A stretch of 64,000 nucleotides of DNA, from positions 7,307,501-7,371,500 of the forward strand of contig NZ_CP060295.1 in NCBI RefSeq assembly GCF_014302995.1, read 5' to 3'. The notes under the pieces are model-generated. The model did no database searches and was not told the DNA's origin. It saw nothing but the letters and a program-made list of their open reading frames with translations. Shown piece after piece: positions 4,465 through 57,798 of the stretch. Both the position numbers and the translations under genes were made by a program. This DNA comes from Variovorax sp. PAMC26660. Lineage in GTDB: Bacteria > Pseudomonadota > Gammaproteobacteria > Burkholderiales > Burkholderiaceae_C. Position 1 is the first letter of the stretch. Every line of letters begins with the position of its first letter.

Positions 4465-4761
4465 CCGCTGTTGTTCAGGGCACTGTTTTTCAAGACGGGT
4501 TCATTCGGGGCGAGTGCGAATGACACCAGGTGCTCCCCTCCGCGAATGTCCCCCGCTTCGCTCCTCCTTTATTTCGCTGCGGGGAGCACCTGGCGTCATT
4601 CACACTGGGGCACGCTGCTGGTGATCGCCGATCAACGACCGCTCTGAGCGCTCACGTCGATACGGGGCTCTTTTTCGCGAAATAAAGGAGGAGCGAAGCG
4701 GGGGACATTCGCGAAAAAGAGCACCGTGTCGGCGTGAGTGCCGCCCTGAACAGCAAGCGCC
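4465..4761 (+). repeat. dispersed double-hairpin repeat, copy 1
   Basis: Fills most of the gene-free stretch 4447-4787. Stem-loop A has 25-nt arms at 4514-4538 and 4581-4605. Stem-loop B has arms at about 4658-4680 and 4709-4731. The loop of A (4541-4577) and the loop region of B (4677-4713) are exact 37-nt reverse complements. A stretch at 4465-4482 resembles the complement of the right end (4742-4760), so the element may have imperfect terminal inverted repeats. It lies between the glycosyltransferase and the convergent dioxygenase gene. No protein-coding capacity is evident; open frames across it look like chance. Confidence 0.9.
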
Positions 4762-9730: not shown

Positions 9731-10024
9731 TCTGCTGTTGTTTCGGGTGCGGGTGCGAGTTCATTCGGGGCGGGTGCGAATGACACCAGGTGCTCCCCTC
9801 CGCGAATGTCCCCCGCTTCGCTCCTCCTTTATTTCGCTGCGGGGAACACCCGGTGCCATTCGCACTGGGGCACGCTGCTGGTGAACCTGCGATCAACAAC
9901 CGCTCTGTCCAACGCTCACGTCGATACGGGGCTCTTTTTCGCGAAATAAAGGAGGAGCGAAGCGGGGGACATTCGCGAAAAAGAGCACCGTGTCGGCGGG
10001 AGCGTCGCCCTGAACAGCAGCGCT
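9731..10024 (+). repeat. dispersed double-hairpin repeat, copy 2
   Basis: Occupies nearly all of the gap between the TetR gene and tssF (9731-10059). The strongly conserved part runs from about 9759 to 10023 and has the same order as copy 1: stem-loop A, a 60-nt linker, stem-loop B, then the CGCCCTGAACAGCAG end. The 37-nt complementary loops are intact. The right arm of stem A has diverged (GGGGAACACCCGG), so this copy's stem A carries mismatches. No coding capacity is evident. Confidence 0.9.
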
Positions 10025-10059: not shown

Positions 10060-11940
10060 TCAAACGATCCCACGCCCACCCATCCGCACCGGCCACTTGG
10101 CAACAGTCCCGCGCTGCATCGATTCGAGCACCGTCTGCGTGAACACATTGATGCTCACGTGCCGCGCGAGGTAGTGCTCCAGCACCAGCCCCAGCAGATA
10201 CGGGCTCGTGCCCGAGAAGCCCTCTTCGTCCACGCTCAGCGTGCATTGCACGCCACGCCCGTAGATCAGCGGCCCCGCACCCGGCAGGCGCCGCGTGACC
10301 GGCTGGATGCGCGAGCCGACGAGGCTGTCGATCTGGCGGGCCAGCACGTCGTTGTCGGCCGTCACGAACAGCCGCAGCATGTCGCGCAACGCCTGCGCGC
10401 CCTCGCGATGCGGCATGTCGGCCAACGGCAGATGGTTGAAGCCCAACTGGCGAATCAGCCGCCACGCGATTTCGCGCTGCGCGAACGGCGACTTGGGCGT
10501 GCTCGGCGGGCGGATCAGGCCCACCGCCGACACCGGGATCGAATCGGCCACGGCCAGGTCGGAATGCCCGTTGCGCGGCACCAGGCACGGCAGGTCGCGG
10601 TTGGTGAGCATCGCCTTCACCGACAGGTAGCGCAGGCTGTCGGGGTACGGCGCCTCGTGCTGGTCGACCAGCGACAGGAACACCTCGGTGCCGATGTAGG
10701 GCGTGCGCGTGCCGTACTTGCGCGCCGTGTCGGACACCAGCCGCGGCTCGCGCCGCACCGAGAAGTAGCGGCCGTAGTTGCCTTCGTCTTCGTTGAGCGT
10801 CTGGTAGAGCGGGCGGAACTCCAGCTCCGCCGTGGTCTGCGCCTGCTGCCCCCCGATGCGCTGGACCGAGTAGACCTCGAAGTCCAGTGGACGCGAGCGA
10901 TCGGGCACCAGGTGAAATTCAGGCTGTGCCGCATTCAGTTCGATGCGGTCGGTGCGCCGCTCGAACAGATTGACCACCGGCGTGCTGAACAACGCGAACT
11001 GCCCCGCATCGACCAGCGAACCCAGCGCGCCCGGCGGCTTGCTCAGGAGCACGACGATCTCGACCTCCTTGCCGGGCACGCGCGCCAGACCGGGCGCGAG
11101 CTGCGTGAGCGTGAAGAAGTAGAAGCGCTCGGGGCAGGCGAAGTACTCGTGCAGCAGGTTGTGACCATGGAAGGTGTTCCACGCCAGCGGCAGCAACCCC
11201 TCGCCCGGCGCCAGCCCCTCATGCACCAGCGCGCCATCTGTCACCACGTGCGGCCGCTCCATCAGCTTGCCGGGCTCGCCGACGAAGGTCGCCACCGCCG
11301 AGGTGTGCAGCAACTCGAACAGGTGCGAGGCGACCTGCTCGTTGCCGCGCAGGTACACGGGCAGGCGGTCGAGTCCCACCAGCGCGCTGAAACCCATCTC
11401 GCCCACGATGCGCAGGCGCAAGCGCAGCGCGCCCGTCACCTGCACATGCGGCGGCACATAGCGCTCCAGCGCGGGAATGTCGGGTGGCGCGCCGGTGAGC
11501 TTGGCGTCGACGATCTCGAAGGGCCACAGCGTCACGTCCTGGCTGGAGCGGAACTCGCACGGCGTTTCCTCGCCCGTAGGCACGCGCGCATGGAAGGCCG
11601 TGCCGCGCGGCACCACGAAGCCGCGCGTGAAGTCGCCCTCCTTCACGCTGGGGTGCAGTTGCGCCACCGCCATCGACGGCGTGGGGCTCAGGTAGTTCGG
11701 ATACAGCACCTCCAGCAGCCGCTGCGTGAAGCGCGGAAACTCCGCGTCCAGCTTGATCTGCATGCGCGCCGACATGAAGCTGAAAGACTCGATCAGCCGC
11801 TCCACATACGGGTCGGCCACTTCGATGCCGTGCATGCCCAGGCGGCGCGCGATCTTCGGATGCGAGCTGGCGAACTCGCTCGCCGCCTCCCGCATGTAGA
11901 CCAGTTCCTTGTTGTAGTAATCCAGAAGTCGGGGTTCCAT
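10060..11940 (-). CDS. tssF: type VI secretion system baseplate subunit TssF
   Basis: 626 residues, the usual TssF length. The N-terminal signature is intact: LLDYYNKELVYMREAASEFA, HPKIARRLGM, DPYVERLIESFSFM and FPRFTQRLLEVLYPNYL. The middle holds SLRYLSVKAMLTNRDLP and the C-terminus FVGTSPYLLG-like and VFTQTVLESM segments typical of VasA/ImpG. TssF forms a wedge of the T6SS baseplate with TssE, TssG and TssK in the cytoplasm. It follows tssE by 55 bp on the same strand. In most T6SS clusters tssG comes next, but here the gene ends at repeat copy 2 and an unrelated regulator, so tssG must be elsewhere or lost. Confidence 0.95.
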   Translation of the reverse strand: MEPRLLDYYNKELVYMREAASEFASSHPKIARRLGMHGIEVADPYVERLIESFSFMSARMQIKLDAEFPRFTQRLLEVLYPNYLSPTPSMAVAQLHPSVKEGDFTRGFVVPRGTAFHARVPTGEETPCEFRSSQDVTLWPFEIVDAKLTGAPPDIPALERYVPPHVQVTGALRLRLRIVGEMGFSALVGLDRLPVYLRGNEQVASHLFELLHTSAVATFVGEPGKLMERPHVVTDGALVHEGLAPGEGLLPLAWNTFHGHNLLHEYFACPERFYFFTLTQLAPGLARVPGKEVEIVVLLSKPPGALGSLVDAGQFALFSTPVVNLFERRTDRIELNAAQPEFHLVPDRSRPLDFEVYSVQRIGGQQAQTTAELEFRPLYQTLNEDEGNYGRYFSVRREPRLVSDTARKYGTRTPYIGTEVFLSLVDQHEAPYPDSLRYLSVKAMLTNRDLPCLVPRNGHSDLAVADSIPVSAVGLIRPPSTPKSPFAQREIAWRLIRQLGFNHLPLADMPHREGAQALRDMLRLFVTADNDVLARQIDSLVGSRIQPVTRRLPGAGPLIYGRGVQCTLSVDEEGFSGTSPYLLGLVLEHYLARHVSINVFTQTVLESMQRGTVAKWPVRMGGRGIV

Positions 11941-17840: not shown

Positions 17841-18125
17841 GACGCTGCTTGGGAGCGGGTTCATTCGGGGCGAGTGCGAATGACACCGGGAGCTCCCCTC
17901 CGCGAATGTCCCCCGCTTCGCTCCTCCTTTATTTCGCTGCGGGGAGCACCCGGCGTCATTCGCACAGGACGCGCTGCTGATGTACCGCCGATCAACCACA
18001 TCTCTGTCCAGCGCTCGCGCCGATACGGGGCTCTTTTTCGCGAAATAAAGGAGGAGCGAAGCGGGGGACATTCGCGAAAAAGAGCACCGTGTCGGCGGGA
18101 GCGACGCCCTGAACAGCAGCGCCCC
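17841..18125 (+). repeat. dispersed double-hairpin repeat, copy 3
   Basis: Fills the gap between the AraC-type gene and the YcaQ-like gene (17827-18182). The best-conserved span is 17858-18124. The complementary 37-nt loops are intact. Stem A carries the G-C version of the base pair that is A-T in copy 1 (left ACACCGGGAG, right GCACCCGGCG), plus one mismatch. Unlike copies 1 and 2 it sits between two co-directional genes. No coding capacity is seen. Confidence 0.9.
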
Positions 18126-21748: not shown

Positions 21749-21849
21749 AGAAAATCCCCGCGCGGCCGAAGGTCTGGCGCGCCGGCGACATCTTGTGCGC
21801 GGGGGCTGCTCCTAGAATCGCGCCGTTGTCCGGTTCGCCGGACGGCAAG

Positions 21850-22009
21850 CGTTCTCAGGGCGGGGCGAAACTCCCCACCGGCGGTAATGGCAGCGAAAGC
21901 TGCACGAGCCCGCGAGCGCCTTTGGCTTGCTGCAACGCGCAAGCCGAAGGGTCAGCAGATTTCGGTGCAATTCCGAAGCCGACGGTCACAGTCCGGATGA
22001 AAGAGAGCG
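21850..22009 (+). promoter_or_regulatory. FMN riboswitch (RFN element)
   Basis: The conserved FMN aptamer is easy to read: GTTCTCAGGGCGGGGCGAAA, CCCCACCGGCGGTAAT, AGCCCGCGAGCG, GGTCAGCAGATTTCGGTG, AATTCCGAAGCCGACGGTCA and CAGTCCGGATGAAAGAGA. Together these cover the core junction and the closing P1 arms. FMN binding shuts off the downstream gene. A short hairpin GCGGG-TCGG-CCCGC (22016-22029) followed by CGCTTCTTT may serve as part of the expression platform. It lies 100 bp upstream of ribH, its obvious target. Confidence 0.97.
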
Positions 22010-22109
22010 CGAAATGCGGGTCGGCCCGCGCGCTTCTTTCACAGAGCGCGCGAGTTGCCCTGTGGTTTCGTGCGCCCTGATTCAGGAAACCTGCTTCAAG
22101 AGGCACACC

Positions 22110-32211: not shown

Positions 32212-32483
32212 GGGCGCTTTTGTTCGGGGCGGGTGCGAATGACACCGGGTGCTCCCCTCCGCGAATGTCCCCCGCTTCGCTCCTCCTTTATTTCGCTGCG
32301 GGGAGCACCCGGCGTCATTCGCACAGGGACACGCTGCTGGTGATCGCCGATCAACGACCGCTCTGAGCGCTCACGTCGATACGGGGCTCTTTTTCGCGAA
32401 ATAGAGGAGGAGCGAAGCGGGGGACATTCGCGAAAAAGAGCACCGTGTCGGCGTGAGCGTCGCCCTGAACAGCAGCGCCCCAA
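32212..32483 (+). repeat. dispersed double-hairpin repeat, copy 4
   Basis: Lies between the IlvD/Edd and MFS genes (gap 32124-32504), in the same orientation as copies 1-3 but antisense to both neighbours. The left end GGGCGCTTTTGTTCGGGGCG (32212-32231) and the right end CGCCCTGAACAGCAGCGCCC (32461-32480) are near-perfect complements, so this copy shows the terminal inverted repeat best. One loop carries an A-to-G change (AAATAGAGG) that still allows a G-U pair with its partner. Confidence 0.9.
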
Positions 32484-40538: not shown

Positions 40539-40666
40539 CCAGCAGCGTGTCCTGTGCGAATGACGCCAGGTGCTCCCCGCAGCGAAATAAAGGAGGAGCA
40601 AAGCGGGGGACATTCGCACAGGGGAGCACCTGGCGTCATTCGCACTCGCCCCGAACGCGCACGCCC
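40539..40666 (-). repeat. dispersed repeat, copy 5: inverted half copy (stem-loop A only)
   Basis: Read on the minus strand, this copy has the left end (GTTCGGGGCGAGTGCGAATG), stem-loop A with perfect 25-nt arms (about 40554-40578 and 40621-40645), the loop core in the expected sense, and the first ~18 nt of the linker up to CACGCTGCTGG. It then stops abruptly; stem-loop B and the right end are absent. It lies in the 491-bp gap between the dehydratase and YCII genes. Outside the repeat and the candidate promoter, that gap (40354-40538, 40667-40764) shows nothing I can name. Confidence 0.88.
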
Positions 40667-40764
40667 CGAACTCACAGGCCAGGACAGCAAGCCAAACAGG
40701 GGATTCCGGGCATTGCGCCAAACCGTATTCGCGTAAAAAATAATCGCTTCGACACAAGGCTTCG

Positions 40765-51483: not shown

Positions 51484-54400
51484 TCAATGCCAGTTGGCAG
51501 CGATCACCTGACTCAGGCTGCTCTGGCAATTCGCAGGCAACGTGGTCTGGCCTGCAGCAGGCGGGGAGAAACCCGCCATGGCCTGAACAAGGTTCTGCAC
51601 CTGACCGTCCAGTAGCGTCTTGCCGTTGCTGGATTTGAATTGTTCGACGTGGTACTGGCCGCCCAGGTACCAGTTGTCGACCACCAACTTGTCATTGGTT
51701 CCGATCAGGCTGACCTCCAGATCATTGCCCGTTTGACGGAACCACAGTTGATCGGCACTCGAATCGAACGAGGCGACGTCGGTATTGCCGGTCGTCGCAT
51801 CGTTCTCGCTGATGTGATCGCCCCCATAGCCTCGTCCCATCAGATAGGTATCGTTCCCGTCTCCGCCGCTCAACGTGTCGTTGCCGCCTCGTCCATCAAG
51901 GAAGTCGTTTCCTGCACCGCCATTCAGCGTATTGGCTTGTCCATTGCCGATCAATGTATTGTTCAGCGCGTTGCCGGTGAGCGTGGTCGCGGCACCCAAC
52001 AGCACACCGTTTTCTACATTCGCCGCCAGTGCTGTGTTCACGCCCGCGTAGACGGTGTCGATGCCCTCGTTCGCAGCCTCGACCGCCGTATCGTCGATGT
52101 TGTCGATGTAGTAGGTATCGTTGCCCACGCCGCCCGCCATGCGGTCGGCGCCTTGTGCACCATCCAGGATGTTGTCGCCGGCATTTCCGGTCAGTACGTT
52201 CGCAAGCTCGTTGCCGGTCGCGTTGATGTTGTACGTGCCGACCAGGCTGAGGTTCTCCTGGTTCTTGCCCAGCGTCCACGAAACGGAGGACTGGACCGTA
52301 TCGACACCGGCATTGGCGTCTTCGGAAACCGTGTCCAACTGGTTGTCCACCAAGTAGGTATCGTTGCCCGTTCCGCCCACCAGGTCGTCGGCCTCCGCTC
52401 CGCCATCGAGCCGGTTGTCCCCGGCATTGCCCACGAGGCGATTGCGCTGCCCATTGCCGGTGGCGTTGAGATTTGCAGTACCCGTGAGCACCAGCACTTC
52501 GACGTCGTCAGGCAATTGATAGCTCACACTGGACTGCACAGTGTCGTAGCCACCGCCGGGCAACTCGTTGACCTTGTCACCGGCGTTGTCGACGACGTAG
52601 GCATCGTCACCCGTGCGTCCGGTCATGCTGTCGACGCCTGCCAGGCCATTGATCGTGTTGGCGCCCGCGTCTCCTGTCAAGGCGTCGTTTCCGGCAGTGC
52701 CTGCTATCGGCAAAGGTTGCACCGGTCCGGCAACCAGGGGTGACGCGATTGCCAGAGGCGCCGCACCGGGCACCGAGATTCCACTCACCTTGGACGCCGG
52801 CAACGGTGTTGCATCCGCACTGCCCGCAAAGATGAAATGGGCGGCGATCAGGGCGGCCGGTTCTACCGCAGACACTCCGACCGACACGACCGACTGCCCT
52901 TCCACCTGCGCCAATACACGCGTGATGAATGTGCCGTTGATGTTCAGCGCCTTGTTGATCTTGAGCTGGCTGAAATCCTTGATCCAGGCAAACTGGCTCA
53001 GATCGATCTTGTCCGCCGCCAGTTCGAAATCCGAGATCAGATTGCTGGTGCCGATGTCATTGCCGTAGAAGCCCATCGTCGGCGAACCACCGCCATCCGG
53101 CGCGACCAGAAAGCGGTCCGCTCCCGCGCCACCCGTCCGCACACCCGTGCCGGGCTGCCGCGTCGCGTACGAAATGCGGCCTTGATCGCCGTCGAGTACC
53201 AAGACGTCGTTGCCAGCGCCGCCGTCCAGAGTGTCCAGCCCCGCGCCGCCCAGCAGCTTGTCGTTGCCTCCGTTGCCCAGCAGAACATCGTTACCCGCAC
53301 CACCGATCAGCAGGTCATCATCCTCCGTGCCTGGTTGCAGGGTGTTGCTGTCGGTGCCTCCGGTAGAGCCTTGGCCAGCCTGTTGCCAGGCCTGCAGCGT
53401 GGCCTGCGACTCAAAGAACTGGAACTGGGTCGTGCCGAGTTGGCTCACCAGACGATTGCGCACCAGGACGCCTTGGCCGTCGCCCAGGTCCAATTGGACA
53501 TCTGCTCCCACTTGCGTGCGGACGAGGGTGGCGAAGTTCAGGCTTGCAAAGCCCACCAGCGCTATGGTTTCCGGAGCACCCGCATTGTTGCCTATTGCAA
53601 AATCGACGATCACGTCCTGTGCTCCGGCATTCTTGCCGATGACGAAAAGATCGCTGCCCGCGCCGCCAGTGAGCACATCATTGCCCTTGCCGCCGTCCAG
53701 CGTGTCGTTGCCGTCCCCCCCGTTGATGACGTCTGAACCACGTCCACCCAGCAACACATTGTTCAGCGCGTTTCCCGTCAGGGTGTCGTTGCCATCGCCA
53801 CCCATCGCAATCTCGATGTCGCCAATGAGGATGTTCAACGACCTGCCTGCAATCGTGCTGGTGCTGCCATTGCTCAGGTTGATCGTGCTGTTTCCCGTGA
53901 CGGCGCTTGCATTGATGATGTCGGTTCCACTATTGCTGTCCACCAATGTGCTCGGGAGCTGGACATTGGGTATTCGGGTAGCGCCGATGAATTCATCTTT
54001 GCCACGGAATTCATCGGTGTAAACATACACGTCGTTGGTGTCGGCCTTCTTGCCATACAGGTCAAGCTTCCAGTTCTTGAGCGTGCCGGCATTGCCGGTG
54101 GCAGCGTCAATGACTTGCAATGTCCAATTGCCCGCACTTTGCTCGCCGAGCACATGGGTGGTGCTGAAGCTGAAGCTCAACGGCCCCGACGACGCATTGC
54201 CCAGATCGGTGGCAGCACTGCCCGGCGCCTTGTCGGGCCGGTTGACGAGGATGCTCTCGGTTCCCCCGGGTGAGATCAGCTTGATGATCAGGTCGCCCCA
54301 ACGCTGGTGGTCCAGTTCGAGCGTGACTTGCGCGCTCTCGACCTCCACGCCGCCGCCCATGGCGAGCGTGCGCGCGACCATGCCGGTGCCGTCGGGAATC

Positions 54401-57400
54401 GCCGCGTTGAGGACCCCGCTGGATGCGGTCGTCACGAACTCGTTCGCGAATGTGCTCTGTTCGGTCCAGGTTTCAGCCAGCCGTACCGCGGCGCGGGCAT
54501 CGACCTTGCCGAAGCCATAGTCGTGGCTGGCATGCATGCCGCCGCCATTCCAGGTCTTGGCGCCGTTCGTGACCCAATCGGTTCCATTGGGGTCGCTCAC
54601 TTTCGTCGCCGTCATTGCCAGGATGGTCTGGATGTCGCGGTAACCCAATGCAGGGTTGGCTTCAAGCATCAGGGCAATGACCCCTGACACGATCGGTGCC
54701 GCGAAGCTGGTGCCCTGGCTGGTGCCGTAGTCGGCCCCGAAGGTCGAGCCGTTGTCAGCGACGAGTTCGCGGCTGGTCGAATCGATGTTGCTGCCCGGTG
54801 CCGACACCAGAATGGAGGCGCCCGGGTTGCTGAAGGGCTTGCTTCCCAATTGCAGAGTACCCAGATCGCCTGGCGCGTTGATGCTGCCCGCAACGATCAC
54901 GGCCCGATTGGCAGTGAGCGCGTTGTAGTTGGTATTGGCACCCGTTGCGCGGTCGTTGCCGCCCGCCATCACGATCGCCGTGCCCAAACCGTTTCGACCG
55001 TGGGCGATGGCGTCAAGAATTCCGGTCTCGAGATTGCCCGCCGGCACCACGTTCAGACCGAAGCTTGTGGAAGCGCCCCACGAGTTGTTGACCACGTCAA
55101 AATTCTTGAACTTGGCCAGCGCGTTGCTGATTTCCTGACTGAGCTTGCCGACTTCCAGACTTTCGCCCTGGATGTAGTGACCCGCAAGCGTTGCGTTGTA
55201 GGCCACGCCGATGCCGCCCTCGCCGTTGCGTGCCGCGACCATGACGCCAGCCACCATCGTGGCGTGACTGCTGAAGGTTTGCGGCGTGTCATTTCGGCCG
55301 TTCGCATCCAGTTTGCTCAGCCACGCCTTGTCGGCATTGGGCTGCAGATCGGGATGACGATAGTCGAACACCTCAGGGCCCGTGCTGAATGCACCACCCG
55401 GTTCGAACTGGCCGATTCTGATGCCCTTGCCGGTGTAGTCCTGCCACACGGGGATGACGTTGACATCGCTCAGATACCACTGCTCCACGGCAAGCGGGTC
55501 GCTGGGCAGATCACCGGTTTGCAGGAACACGGCCGCTTTCATGGGCTCGGTCTGGCCGGTGGCGCTGTTGCTCACTTCTGTGAAATGGCCTTCTGCATCC
55601 TGCACCTTGTACTTGAAGCCCATCACTCCGGTGTAGCTTGCATCGGGCGTGAAAAGCACATCGCCGCTGGCAGTGAGCGCGACGGCTCCACCCTTGGCGT
55701 CGAGCACCTCGGTGATCTTGAGCTGGCCGATGTCGCTGTCCCAATCGCGGTCGTTGAGCAGCAGCTGGTTCTTGGACAACAGATGCGCAGCGGTTCGGCT
55801 CAAGGCCTGACCAGCCGAATTGACGGTCAGAACGTCCTTGACCGGCAGCGGACTGCCAATGGTCAAGTCGACGCGGCTGACGTCGGCGAAGCTGAGTTTC
55901 TCGATGCCGGTCAGCGTGTCGGCACCGTCCTGCCCGGTGCGGGTATCGATCACGCGGTAGCGGGTACTTCCGTTTGCGCTGTCGAGCTTGGTGATGCGGT
56001 AGTCGGCATAGCTGCCGGCGTACTGGGCAACATCAATGCCGTCGCCGCCATTCAGGTTGTCGTCGCCCCGTCCACCAATGAGCACGTCGTTGCCTGCGCC
56101 GCCATTCAGGCTGTCGTCTTCCAGGCCACCGTCGAGCACATCGTCGCCAGCACCGCCGAGCAACTGGTCGCGCCCGCGGTGGCCGCGAATCAGATCGTTG
56201 CTCGCGCCGCCGTCGAGCGTGTCGTCGCCATCCTCGCCGGACAGCACGTCGTTGGCAGCGCCGCCGATGATCACGTCGTTTCCGGCTCCGCCGCGCACGA
56301 CCACGGTGGAGCGGCCTCCGCCTACAAAGACATCGTTTCCGGCACCACCGACAGCCATCTCGATGTTGCTCTGACTCAGGTTGAGCGAGACGCCCTGTGC
56401 TCCTACCACCTGGGCGATGTCGAACCCATCGCCACCGTCGATACGCTTGTCTGCGGCGTCGATCAGCAGCACATCGTCTCCAGCACCGCCGACGAGGGTG
56501 TCCGCGCCTGTGCCTCCGGCCAGCCAGTTGTTCGCAGCGTCGCCCGTCAGGGTGTCATTGCCCGCACCGCCCGTCAGGTTGCGCACCTTGAGAGAAGCGG
56601 CGTCGAGGGTCTCGTTGACGGAGGCCGTGGTGTTCTTCGACACATAGGCGGTGGTGGCACCTGCCCCACTTGTGCCGTTCTCGGTGGCAACGGTGATACC
56701 AGTGCCGGTCTGCGTGACGGTGCTGCCAGCAGGATTGGCGAGGAAGTTGGCCGCAATGGCTTCTCGGCTGACGCCGTTTTGCGTGAAAGTGCCTCGTGCC
56801 AGCACTTCGTTGCCGTCGCGCACTTCGCCGCTTTGCGCTGTGGCGGCCAAGTTGATGGCAGTGATGCCCAGATCGGCAAAGGTCTTGAGTTCGCCCGCAT
56901 CTGTCTTGCCGTCATGGTTGGCATCGACCCACATGCGCAGGGTGTTCCAGGCCGCGTCCGTCGCGGTGAACTGGCTGTCGGCGTTGCTGTCGAGGCTTTT
57001 GAGGGCTGCGAAGCCATTCGCATACGGCTTGGTGCCACCAACACCGTTGGAGCCGGCCACGCCGTTGTAGTACTCGCTCAGCGTCTCGCGAATGTTGTTG
57101 ATCTTGCCGTCGCCGTTGAGGTCGTGCACGACGATGCCGTCCTGCGCGCTGACCCAGCCGGTTTGCTCCAGCGAGCCACCGTCGTTGTCGGCGTCGAAGA
57201 GGACGGGCGACGCGCCGTAACTGGTGAGCTTGACGCCATCGCCGTTGAGGTCCAGCACCAGCGGGTCAACGGGGAAAAGGTTGAAATTGAAGCTGGAAGC
57301 GTTGTTCAGGCTGCTGCCGAAGAGGTCGTAGTTGACCGGGCCAGCCACCGGGTCGGTATTGCCGATGCTGCCGGTGTTGGAGATGGGCAGGCCCAGACCA

Positions 57401-57798
57401 CTCGATGCGTTGATGTCAAGACCCAGATTGGCATTGCCTGGACGAAGCCCATCGGTGATCGCGTAGCCGATTACCGCCCGGTTGCCGGTAGCGGTGTTGA
57501 CGTTCCAGAAGTTGTTGGCGATGCCAACGGTGTAGCTGCCAGCGGAAACCAGGTTGTTGTTGCTTGCGCTCGGACCCAGGCTGGTGCCGTCGGGCGTTGG
57601 CGTTTCGCTGGGTGCGGGCGCGGTGGTGACGGTGCTCAGGGTGACCGTGTTGATCTCCGTTCCGTTGGCCTGAGGAGCAGCCATGACAACGCCGTTGGCA
57701 TCGAATTGCTGGACTGTGACTTGGTCCAACTGGGAGGTACCGGGCAAATAGGTGCTGGTCGTGGAAATATGCCCCCCCAGAAGCGCCCCAAGGAGCAA
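51484..57798 (-). CDS. giant RTX protein: body with subtilase (S8), P domain and RTX repeats (frame broken near 57775)
   Basis: This frame encodes about 2,100 residues with no plausible start of its own; it continues the N-terminal frame (57779-58795) once one G is removed from a run of seven. Along the body (numbering from 57798): an EF-hand-like [11 protein letters not shown] (about 185), RTX nonapeptides GGAGNDTL (410-590), a cadherin-like stretch, then peptidase S8 with GQFEPGG (about 796, where the catalytic Asp is normally found), SSHATMVAG (about 844, His) and GTSFAAP (about 1030, Ser). A P/homo-B domain (about 1150-1250) and more RTX blocks follow, then a C-terminal haemolysin-type segment. 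Such proteins leave the cell through type I secretion and bind calcium outside. ATG codons near 57684 could start a shorter product. Confidence 0.85.

Follow-up and report, generated by a model that had tools for sequence, protein, structure and literature searches.

The window analysed here is a 64,000-nt stretch of DNA from Variovorax sp. PAMC26660, positions 7307501–7371500 of a single contig of 7,388,698 bp. It contains several copies of a sequence that forms two neighbouring hairpins, and the question is what kind of element carries different stems but one motif, in opposite directions, in its two loops. Four full copies and one inverted half copy are found, by repeat families D1, D2 and D4 and by covariance model R1, where an initial annotation had placed them. 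Copy 1 had been given as 4465–4761; the location is right, but the element proper, between its inverted ends, is approximately 4504–4756. The features are as follows.

4504–4756, plus strand: copy 1 of the twin-hairpin element (sequence; repeat families D1, D2 and D4; 48-copy consensus)
4504–4512 and 4742–4750: inverted ends of copy 1, TTCGGGGCG and CGCCCTGAA (sequence)
4517–4602, motif on the minus strand: hairpin A of copy 1 (R1, 98.9 bits)
4541–4577, minus strand: 37-nt loop core of hairpin A, copy 1, exact complement of 4677–4713
4652–4737, motif on the plus strand: hairpin B of copy 1 (R1, 92.0 bits)
4677–4713, plus strand: 37-nt loop core of hairpin B, copy 1, GCGAAAT-A-AAGGAGGA-[GCGAAGC]-GGGGGACATTCGC(G) (motif comparison)
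9777–9862, minus strand: hairpin A of copy 2 (R1, 97.3 bits)
9916–10001, plus strand: hairpin B of copy 2 (R1, 88.8 bits)
17877–17962, minus strand: hairpin A of copy 3 (R1, 98.4 bits)
18015–18100, plus strand: hairpin B of copy 3 (R1, 89.7 bits)
32236–32321, minus strand: hairpin A of copy 4 (R1, 102.3 bits)
32371–32456, plus strand: hairpin B of copy 4 (R1, 88.6 bits)
40557–40642, plus strand: half copy, hairpin A alone and inverted relative to the full copies, in a region of about 40540–40670 (R1, 94.9 bits; tip mutated to GCAAAGC)

Neighbouring genes were identified by Pfam and encode a glycosyltransferase and LigB (copy 1), TetR and TssF (copy 2) and MFS and IlvD (copy 4) proteins, with AraC to the left of copy 3. 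The TssF gene, of a type VI secretion system, is at positions 10060–11940 on the minus strand, adjoins copy 2 and scores 754.8 bits.

The two cores of copy 1, read base by base, are exact 37-nt reverse complements, as had been claimed. The design described earlier, with different stems and one motif in opposite directions in the two loops, is borne out, and the sequence is a dispersed extragenic repeat. The 37-nt core is present as described but is internally structured, i.e., it consists of an internal loop and a tip hairpin. DNA folding of positions 4509–4610 gives -34.8 kcal/mol for hairpin A (z -7.3), and folding of positions 4646–4744 gives -36.1 kcal/mol for hairpin B (z -8.4). An alignment of 48 copies from the PAMC26660 genome displays the order hairpin A, variable middle and hairpin B between the ends TTCRGGGCG and CGCCCTGAA(CAGCAGC). 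The unit is approximately 250 bp, with short inverted ends and two head-to-head hairpins whose motifs are about 110 nt apart. A single arm is 86–108 nt in length with a GC content of 56–77%.

The head-to-head (minus-plus) arrangement is found in 107 of 109 close hairpin pairs, and the other two are minus-minus. The motifs of the 107 pairs are separated by 107–113 nt in 98 cases, by 49–71 nt in seven, and by 207 and 210 nt in two. One additional same-strand neighbouring hairpin is present in G667. A larger composite with a gene between the arms was considered and rejected: the wide pair in L244 represents two hairpins behind two separate genes. Reading of the wide pairs in L247 and L254 shows no obvious gene separating the hairpins.

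Stems are maintained with compensatory changes. In 60 Variovorax-type hairpins (two from L062, which is another genus), the named structure is paired in 95.6% of cells, with both sides changed in 25 of 33 stem pairs. None of 500 shuffles is as high, and slid versions of the structure are paired in at most 46.9%. The result partly reflects the difference between A stems and B stems. A wider count shows 97.3% pairing and changes in 27 of 31 pairs, but it is weaker in that the alignment was fitted to the model and 23 of the 112 rows are opposite strands. The changes demonstrate folding and not function, because hairpin-templated repair can also yield double changes.

Outside PAMC26660 the core resolves into a long stem ending in GCGAAAT/ATTCGC, followed by an unpaired purine box with sides AAGGRGGA and GGRGGACA, and then by the tip hairpin. 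Each hairpin combines a covarying stem with the cap AT-N-AAGGRGGA-[tip hairpin]-GGRGGACA. In none of the 186 rows examined is the box a perfect palindrome. Its two variable positions change together: A/G is present in 176 rows, G/A in 8, A/A in 2 and G/G in none (p = 1.5e-12 if rows are taken as independent; they share ancestry). This linkage and the non-palindromic form argue for a constraint on the purine box, as judged from the aligned sequences. G·A pairs are predicted within the box, and a G-quadruplex made by the four GG tracts was considered as a possibility.

The tip hairpin varies between copies, e.g., GCGAAGC, GGCCGCAGGCC and GGGGCGCAGCCCC. Tip loops are of the C-GNA-G type in 156 of 186 rows, or in 86 of 109 once loci retrieved with the core pattern are set aside, and are rarer (26 of 48) in a mainly non-Variovorax set. 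Control hairpins in the same loci have GNA or TNC triloops in 7 of 82 cases. DNA mini-hairpins in which two or more G-C pairs close a GNA loop are described as exceptionally stable, with a Tm of 78 °C for GCGAAGC (PMC4686876). The element resembles these in that it has the tip GCGAAGC itself and GNA-type loops in most other tips, and the DNA form would be favoured because such loops are exceptionally stable in DNA. The molecules described in that source differ in being synthetic aptamers, presented there with no link to repeats. The 33 nt outside the element ends, read towards the element, are rich in T and G (mean 0.59–0.74); such flanks are seen in PAMC26660 and in other copies, both after stops and before starts.

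In the PAMC26660 genome of 7.39 Mb, the 20-mer GCGAAGCGGGGGACATTCGC matches 169 times forward and 168 times in reverse with up to two mismatches, and the reversed-pattern control has no match in either direction. The genome-wide search for the core that the initial annotation had suggested thus reveals abundant inverted pairs. The two 20-mer starts are 151, 152, 154 or 155 nt apart in the 48 aligned copies. A B-core match is present 66–80 nt beyond all 40 full-length A-hairpin 60-mers that were scored, from 185 candidates; one of these matches is partial, with 78% identity. All four full copies in the window do point the same way, but their common orientation is local, with 24 plus and 16 minus among the 40 genome-wide.

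Relatives were searched with R1 at E values up to 1e-4 with strict filters, counting the best matches per genome (at most 43 for Variovorax and 14 for the family). The element is widespread: matches are found in 84 of 101 Variovorax genomes and in 139 of 299 genomes of the host family, i.e., nearly half of those sampled, representing 78 of 141 genera. There is no R1 match at this threshold in 17 of the Variovorax and 160 of the family genomes. The 26-base core occurs in at least 120 stretches of species genomes, and all 80 among the titled matches listed are Variovorax; a one-mismatch core match outside this genus is present in 2 of the 299 family genomes. In a sample of the class, 4 of 369 genomes have R1 matches, namely PAMC26660, one genome of the same family and two in another family (f14). 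The f14 pairs are also minus-plus, with stems that look unrelated to those of the Variovorax element. Copy number within Variovorax varies widely, from no model match to 169 core pairs. The approximately 169 inverted core pairs of PAMC26660 compare with 1 and 6 covariance-model matches in the two nearest genomes (ilvD identity 90% and 89%).

Among other records, the phage sequences searched contain no match and the plasmid sequences searched contain three matching Variovorax replicons. At least 80 stretches of viral contigs fit a loose pattern, two of them with an R1 match, on the IMG/VR contigs L398 (690–779) and L405 (5471–5570). In Variovorax sp. KBW07 many contigs (e.g., L098, L117, L131 and L141) seem to end inside or near a hairpin, as though assembly broke at the repeat. 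No Rfam 15 family reached its gathering score among the copies searched, and copy 1 produced only two animal microRNA models with E values of 1.9 and 3.8, far below the cut-offs. The sole above-threshold Rfam match in the window is an FMN riboswitch elsewhere, at 21847–22012 on the plus strand (103.9 bits). A literature search for the exact core sequence found no paper.

Gene contexts were determined with a home-made codon-based caller trained on 14 genes of the window. Because the training genes include Pfam-supported ones, the match between caller and Pfam in the window is no independent check. The earlier statement that every copy lies between genes extends to the 48 copies examined from the genome, none of which is inside a predicted gene; a few predicted genes overlap the edge of an element. 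The 48 copies are in 30 tandem, 17 convergent and 1 divergent contexts. In other genomes the 86 classified contexts are 59 tandem, 25 convergent and 2 divergent, with 68 hairpin groups less than 300 nt from a locus end, four without a gene on one side, three far from genes and three single hairpins inside predicted genes excluded before the count. The 45 neighbouring gene pairs of the window are 22 tandem, 12 convergent and 11 divergent. Divergent contexts therefore comprise 3 of 134 elements versus 11 of 45 window gene pairs (p = 1.8e-5). The element starts a median of about 30 nt behind a stop codon, and 62 of 64 distances are below 70 nt, with the edge approximated. Where the flanking genes are in tandem, hairpin B is the arm next to the upstream stop in 23 of 30 PAMC26660 copies and 31 of 35 others, or 54:11 combined (n = 65, p = 6e-8). 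A stricter script, which classified 20 PAMC26660 copies, gives 14:2 in tandem contexts. Single hairpins have the motif on the transcript strand in 8 cases and on the opposite strand in 15, with no clear preference.

The element is real and widespread, is of the REP-repeat kind, and is located just behind genes in many members of the family. We regard it as a REPIN-like repeat without a known mobiliser that is kept at gene 3' ends, and set it beside the repeat class BRE, discussed below, by description only. In its full form this reading has about an even chance of being correct: the element would be a non-autonomous dispersed repeat, widespread in the family and strongly multiplied in this Variovorax, that persists almost only behind stops and is copied by an enzyme acting in trans. 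This enzyme, encoded elsewhere and distinct from Y1/RAYT, would recognise the folded single strand, and the recognised part may be the conserved purine box around the very stable tip hairpin in both arms. It would copy the unit to new sites, with copies surviving where harm is small, and hairpins in place would probably help to shape the upstream transcript at its 3' end. Dispersal, the common architecture, the compensatory stem changes, the unpaired box with its linked positions, filled and empty sites in different species, and the placement and direction relative to predicted genes are all directly observed; movement in trans, recognition of a DNA single strand and effects on transcripts are inferred. 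More tentatively, the element may represent a distinct mobile-repeat class of head-to-head DNA hairpins, in which a dedicated RAYT-independent factor reads AAGGRGGA/GGRGGACA around a GNA mini-hairpin, with insertion or survival behind stops in an orientation preferred relative to transcription, and with spread over at least 78 genera of one family and into another family of the class.

The gene positions could also be those of a functional element at transcript 3' ends, with hairpins that act as terminators or protect the mRNA upstream of them, and with the right orientation selected, a possible but somewhat doubtful explanation. The short distances behind stops, the rarity of divergent contexts and the direction of hairpin B in tandem contexts all agree with it, as does an element behind ilvD that is common to four species though the tips differ. 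Such strong orientation with respect to the gene upstream fits a transcript-acting element more naturally than a parasite, and this counts against the view of a mobile repeat. However, on reading the sequence, the hairpins are not followed by the U-tract of an intrinsic terminator, copy number ranges from zero model matches to 169 core pairs within one genus, and the single hairpins show no preference for a transcript strand. Through their placement at stop codons and their orientation bias, the copies amount to a large natural experiment on the tolerances and requirements of 3' flanks.

For the REPIN-like repeat copied in trans, presence and absence at one site can be compared at ilvD. Four Variovorax genomes have an element between ilvD and the adjacent gene, and four others lack it at that junction. 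The shared copies have nearly constant stems and changing tips, one of which is damaged. PAMC26660 also has a copy behind ilvD, but with a different gene on the other side. Gene order at the window copies differs in the nearest relatives, and the comparison of filled and empty sites is among other species. No clear target-site duplication was found in the 48 copies over 14,175 combinations of length and offset, with a best excess of 6 versus 1.0 expected.

A REP/BIME/REPIN proper, moved by the single Y1 (RAYT) transposase of the genome, is an improbable identity for the element. The inverted hairpin doublet, extragenic and in high copy, would suit it, and 97 of the 101 Variovorax genomes have a match to a Y1 (RAYT-like) gene, in almost every case a single one (a gene of this type is at 1471–2166 in L061). 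Within the genus, match number (best 43 or fewer per genome) correlates with RAYT score (Spearman 0.60, n = 97), which could result from both following phylogeny. However, there is no R1 match within 1.5 kb at 30 Y1 loci, out of about 100 Y1 matches, and no 16-mer of the PAMC26660 RAYT flanks recurs in 246 kb of loci from that genome. The element and Y1 are not associated across the family: 106 genomes have both, 33 the element only, 116 Y1 only and 44 neither (p = 0.51). These 33 genomes without a PF01797 match, of the 139 positive for the element, include some drafts; element-bearing genomes without any Y1 match are, e.g., G020 and the single-contig G340. RAYT was rejected as mobiliser by this lack of adjacency and co-occurrence, despite the correlation within the genus, and no other mobilising gene for the element was identified. 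The element appears independent of the transposase that usually accompanies REP repeats; it is therefore not filed as a RAYT-moved REPIN, though it is held to work like one. It can serve to test the rule that REP-like doublets depend on a RAYT, because the architecture is kept without the association.

The initial annotation had named no repeat class with this design, which does not stand. REPINs, as described in PMC3116915, are inverted REP doublets that can adopt either a single long hairpin or a clover fold, and have the same plan; BRE is described in PMC3110155. Like REPINs and BIMEs as PMC3116915 presents them, the element is extragenic, high-copy and non-autonomous and has two conserved inverted hairpin motifs and both folds. 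The inverted motif pair with a spacer is seen in the minus-plus pairs (107 of 109), and the high extragenic copy number in the 169 and 168 core matches and in 48 of 48 copies outside predicted genes. Unlike REPINs, the arms have variable stems with a conserved internal loop and are not a 16-mer palindrome. The repeat does not flank RAYT in any of the 30 Y1 loci, and 33 of 139 carriers are without a RAYT match. REP palindromes have a GTAG or CGTC tag at one end, according to the description in PMC3733652; on reading, no conserved end tag is visible in alignment A1. None of six genera of the host group is named in PMC3733652, and among the papers listed on REPIN/RAYT with Burkholderia or Variovorax none, judging by the listing, deals with such repeats in the host family.

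The BRE (Beta-proteobacterial repeat element, Hot et al. 2011) is described in PMC3110155 as approximately 90 bp, with a full-length range of 75–91 bp and a mean GC of 69%, mostly intergenic, and found in Comamonadaceae and Bordetella. None of the 13 Bordetella loci in Table 3 of that paper is between divergent genes, and one copy is in the bprJ1 (80 nt) and bprJ2 transcript region. Published BRE coordinates include NC_002929 3605317–3605401 and 2208359–2208448. One arm of the element is similar, by description, in length, GC, host range and gene context (PMC3110155); at 86–108 nt and GC 0.56–0.77 its ranges overlap those of BRE but are not identical. The BREs described in PMC3110155 are single or in tandem with few nucleotides between, with no head-to-head pair in that description. 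Close hairpins of the element have the same orientation in only 2 of 109 pairs, plus the one neighbour in G667. BRE is the best literature lead for one arm, on its description. MITE-like repeats (Correia/NEMIS, ERIC) are short and dispersed, have inverted ends and fold into hairpins, all of which the element shares. The element differs from these in having no clear target duplication, ends of only about 9 bp, and its conserved part in the loops.

REP sites are described as binding gyrase or IHF, and the conserved unpaired purine box, its linked positions and the near-fixed spacing could likewise represent a binding site for a chromosome-organising or DNA-repair protein. This has little probability against so patchy a distribution, with 17 of the 101 Variovorax genomes and 160 of the 299 from the family lacking a match at the R1 threshold.

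The complementarity of the loops was proposed earlier to serve a switch or kissing complex. The long-range-paired fold is the predicted minimum in all four window copies, so this part of the proposal is retained; for copy 1 the RNA fold is -149.5 kcal/mol with long-range pairs versus -125.3 kcal/mol with pairs limited to 110 nt. Of 17 elements from other genomes whose RNA was folded, 12 have at least 70 cross pairs, even with differing tips. However, the stronger long-range fold is produced automatically by two inverted copies of one motif. Within PAMC26660 the two tips agree in 29 of 31 pairs. Elsewhere in the genus they agree in 18 of 61 pairs, and this set favours identical tips, as the exact core served to retrieve many of its loci. 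Among 15 further pairs, two of which are also Variovorax, the tips agree in 2. Selection for a complete duplex is not borne out, as tips usually differ elsewhere; full complementarity is not conserved and kissing or switching is therefore unlikely as the selected function. An RNA switch or kissing complex using both loops in full is the least probable explanation, for all that the copy 1 cores are exact complements, given tips that differ in 43 of 61 and 13 of 15 pairs. The long-range structure itself would still be possible according to the predicted folds.

Single hairpins in L100, L113, L159, L160 and L173 have an A-type arm on one side of the core and a B-type arm on the other. These hybrids were apparently made by recombination between cores. 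Elsewhere in the window, an open frame of 2104 aa at 51484–57798 on the minus strand carries a 54-nt repeat family with 10 copies.
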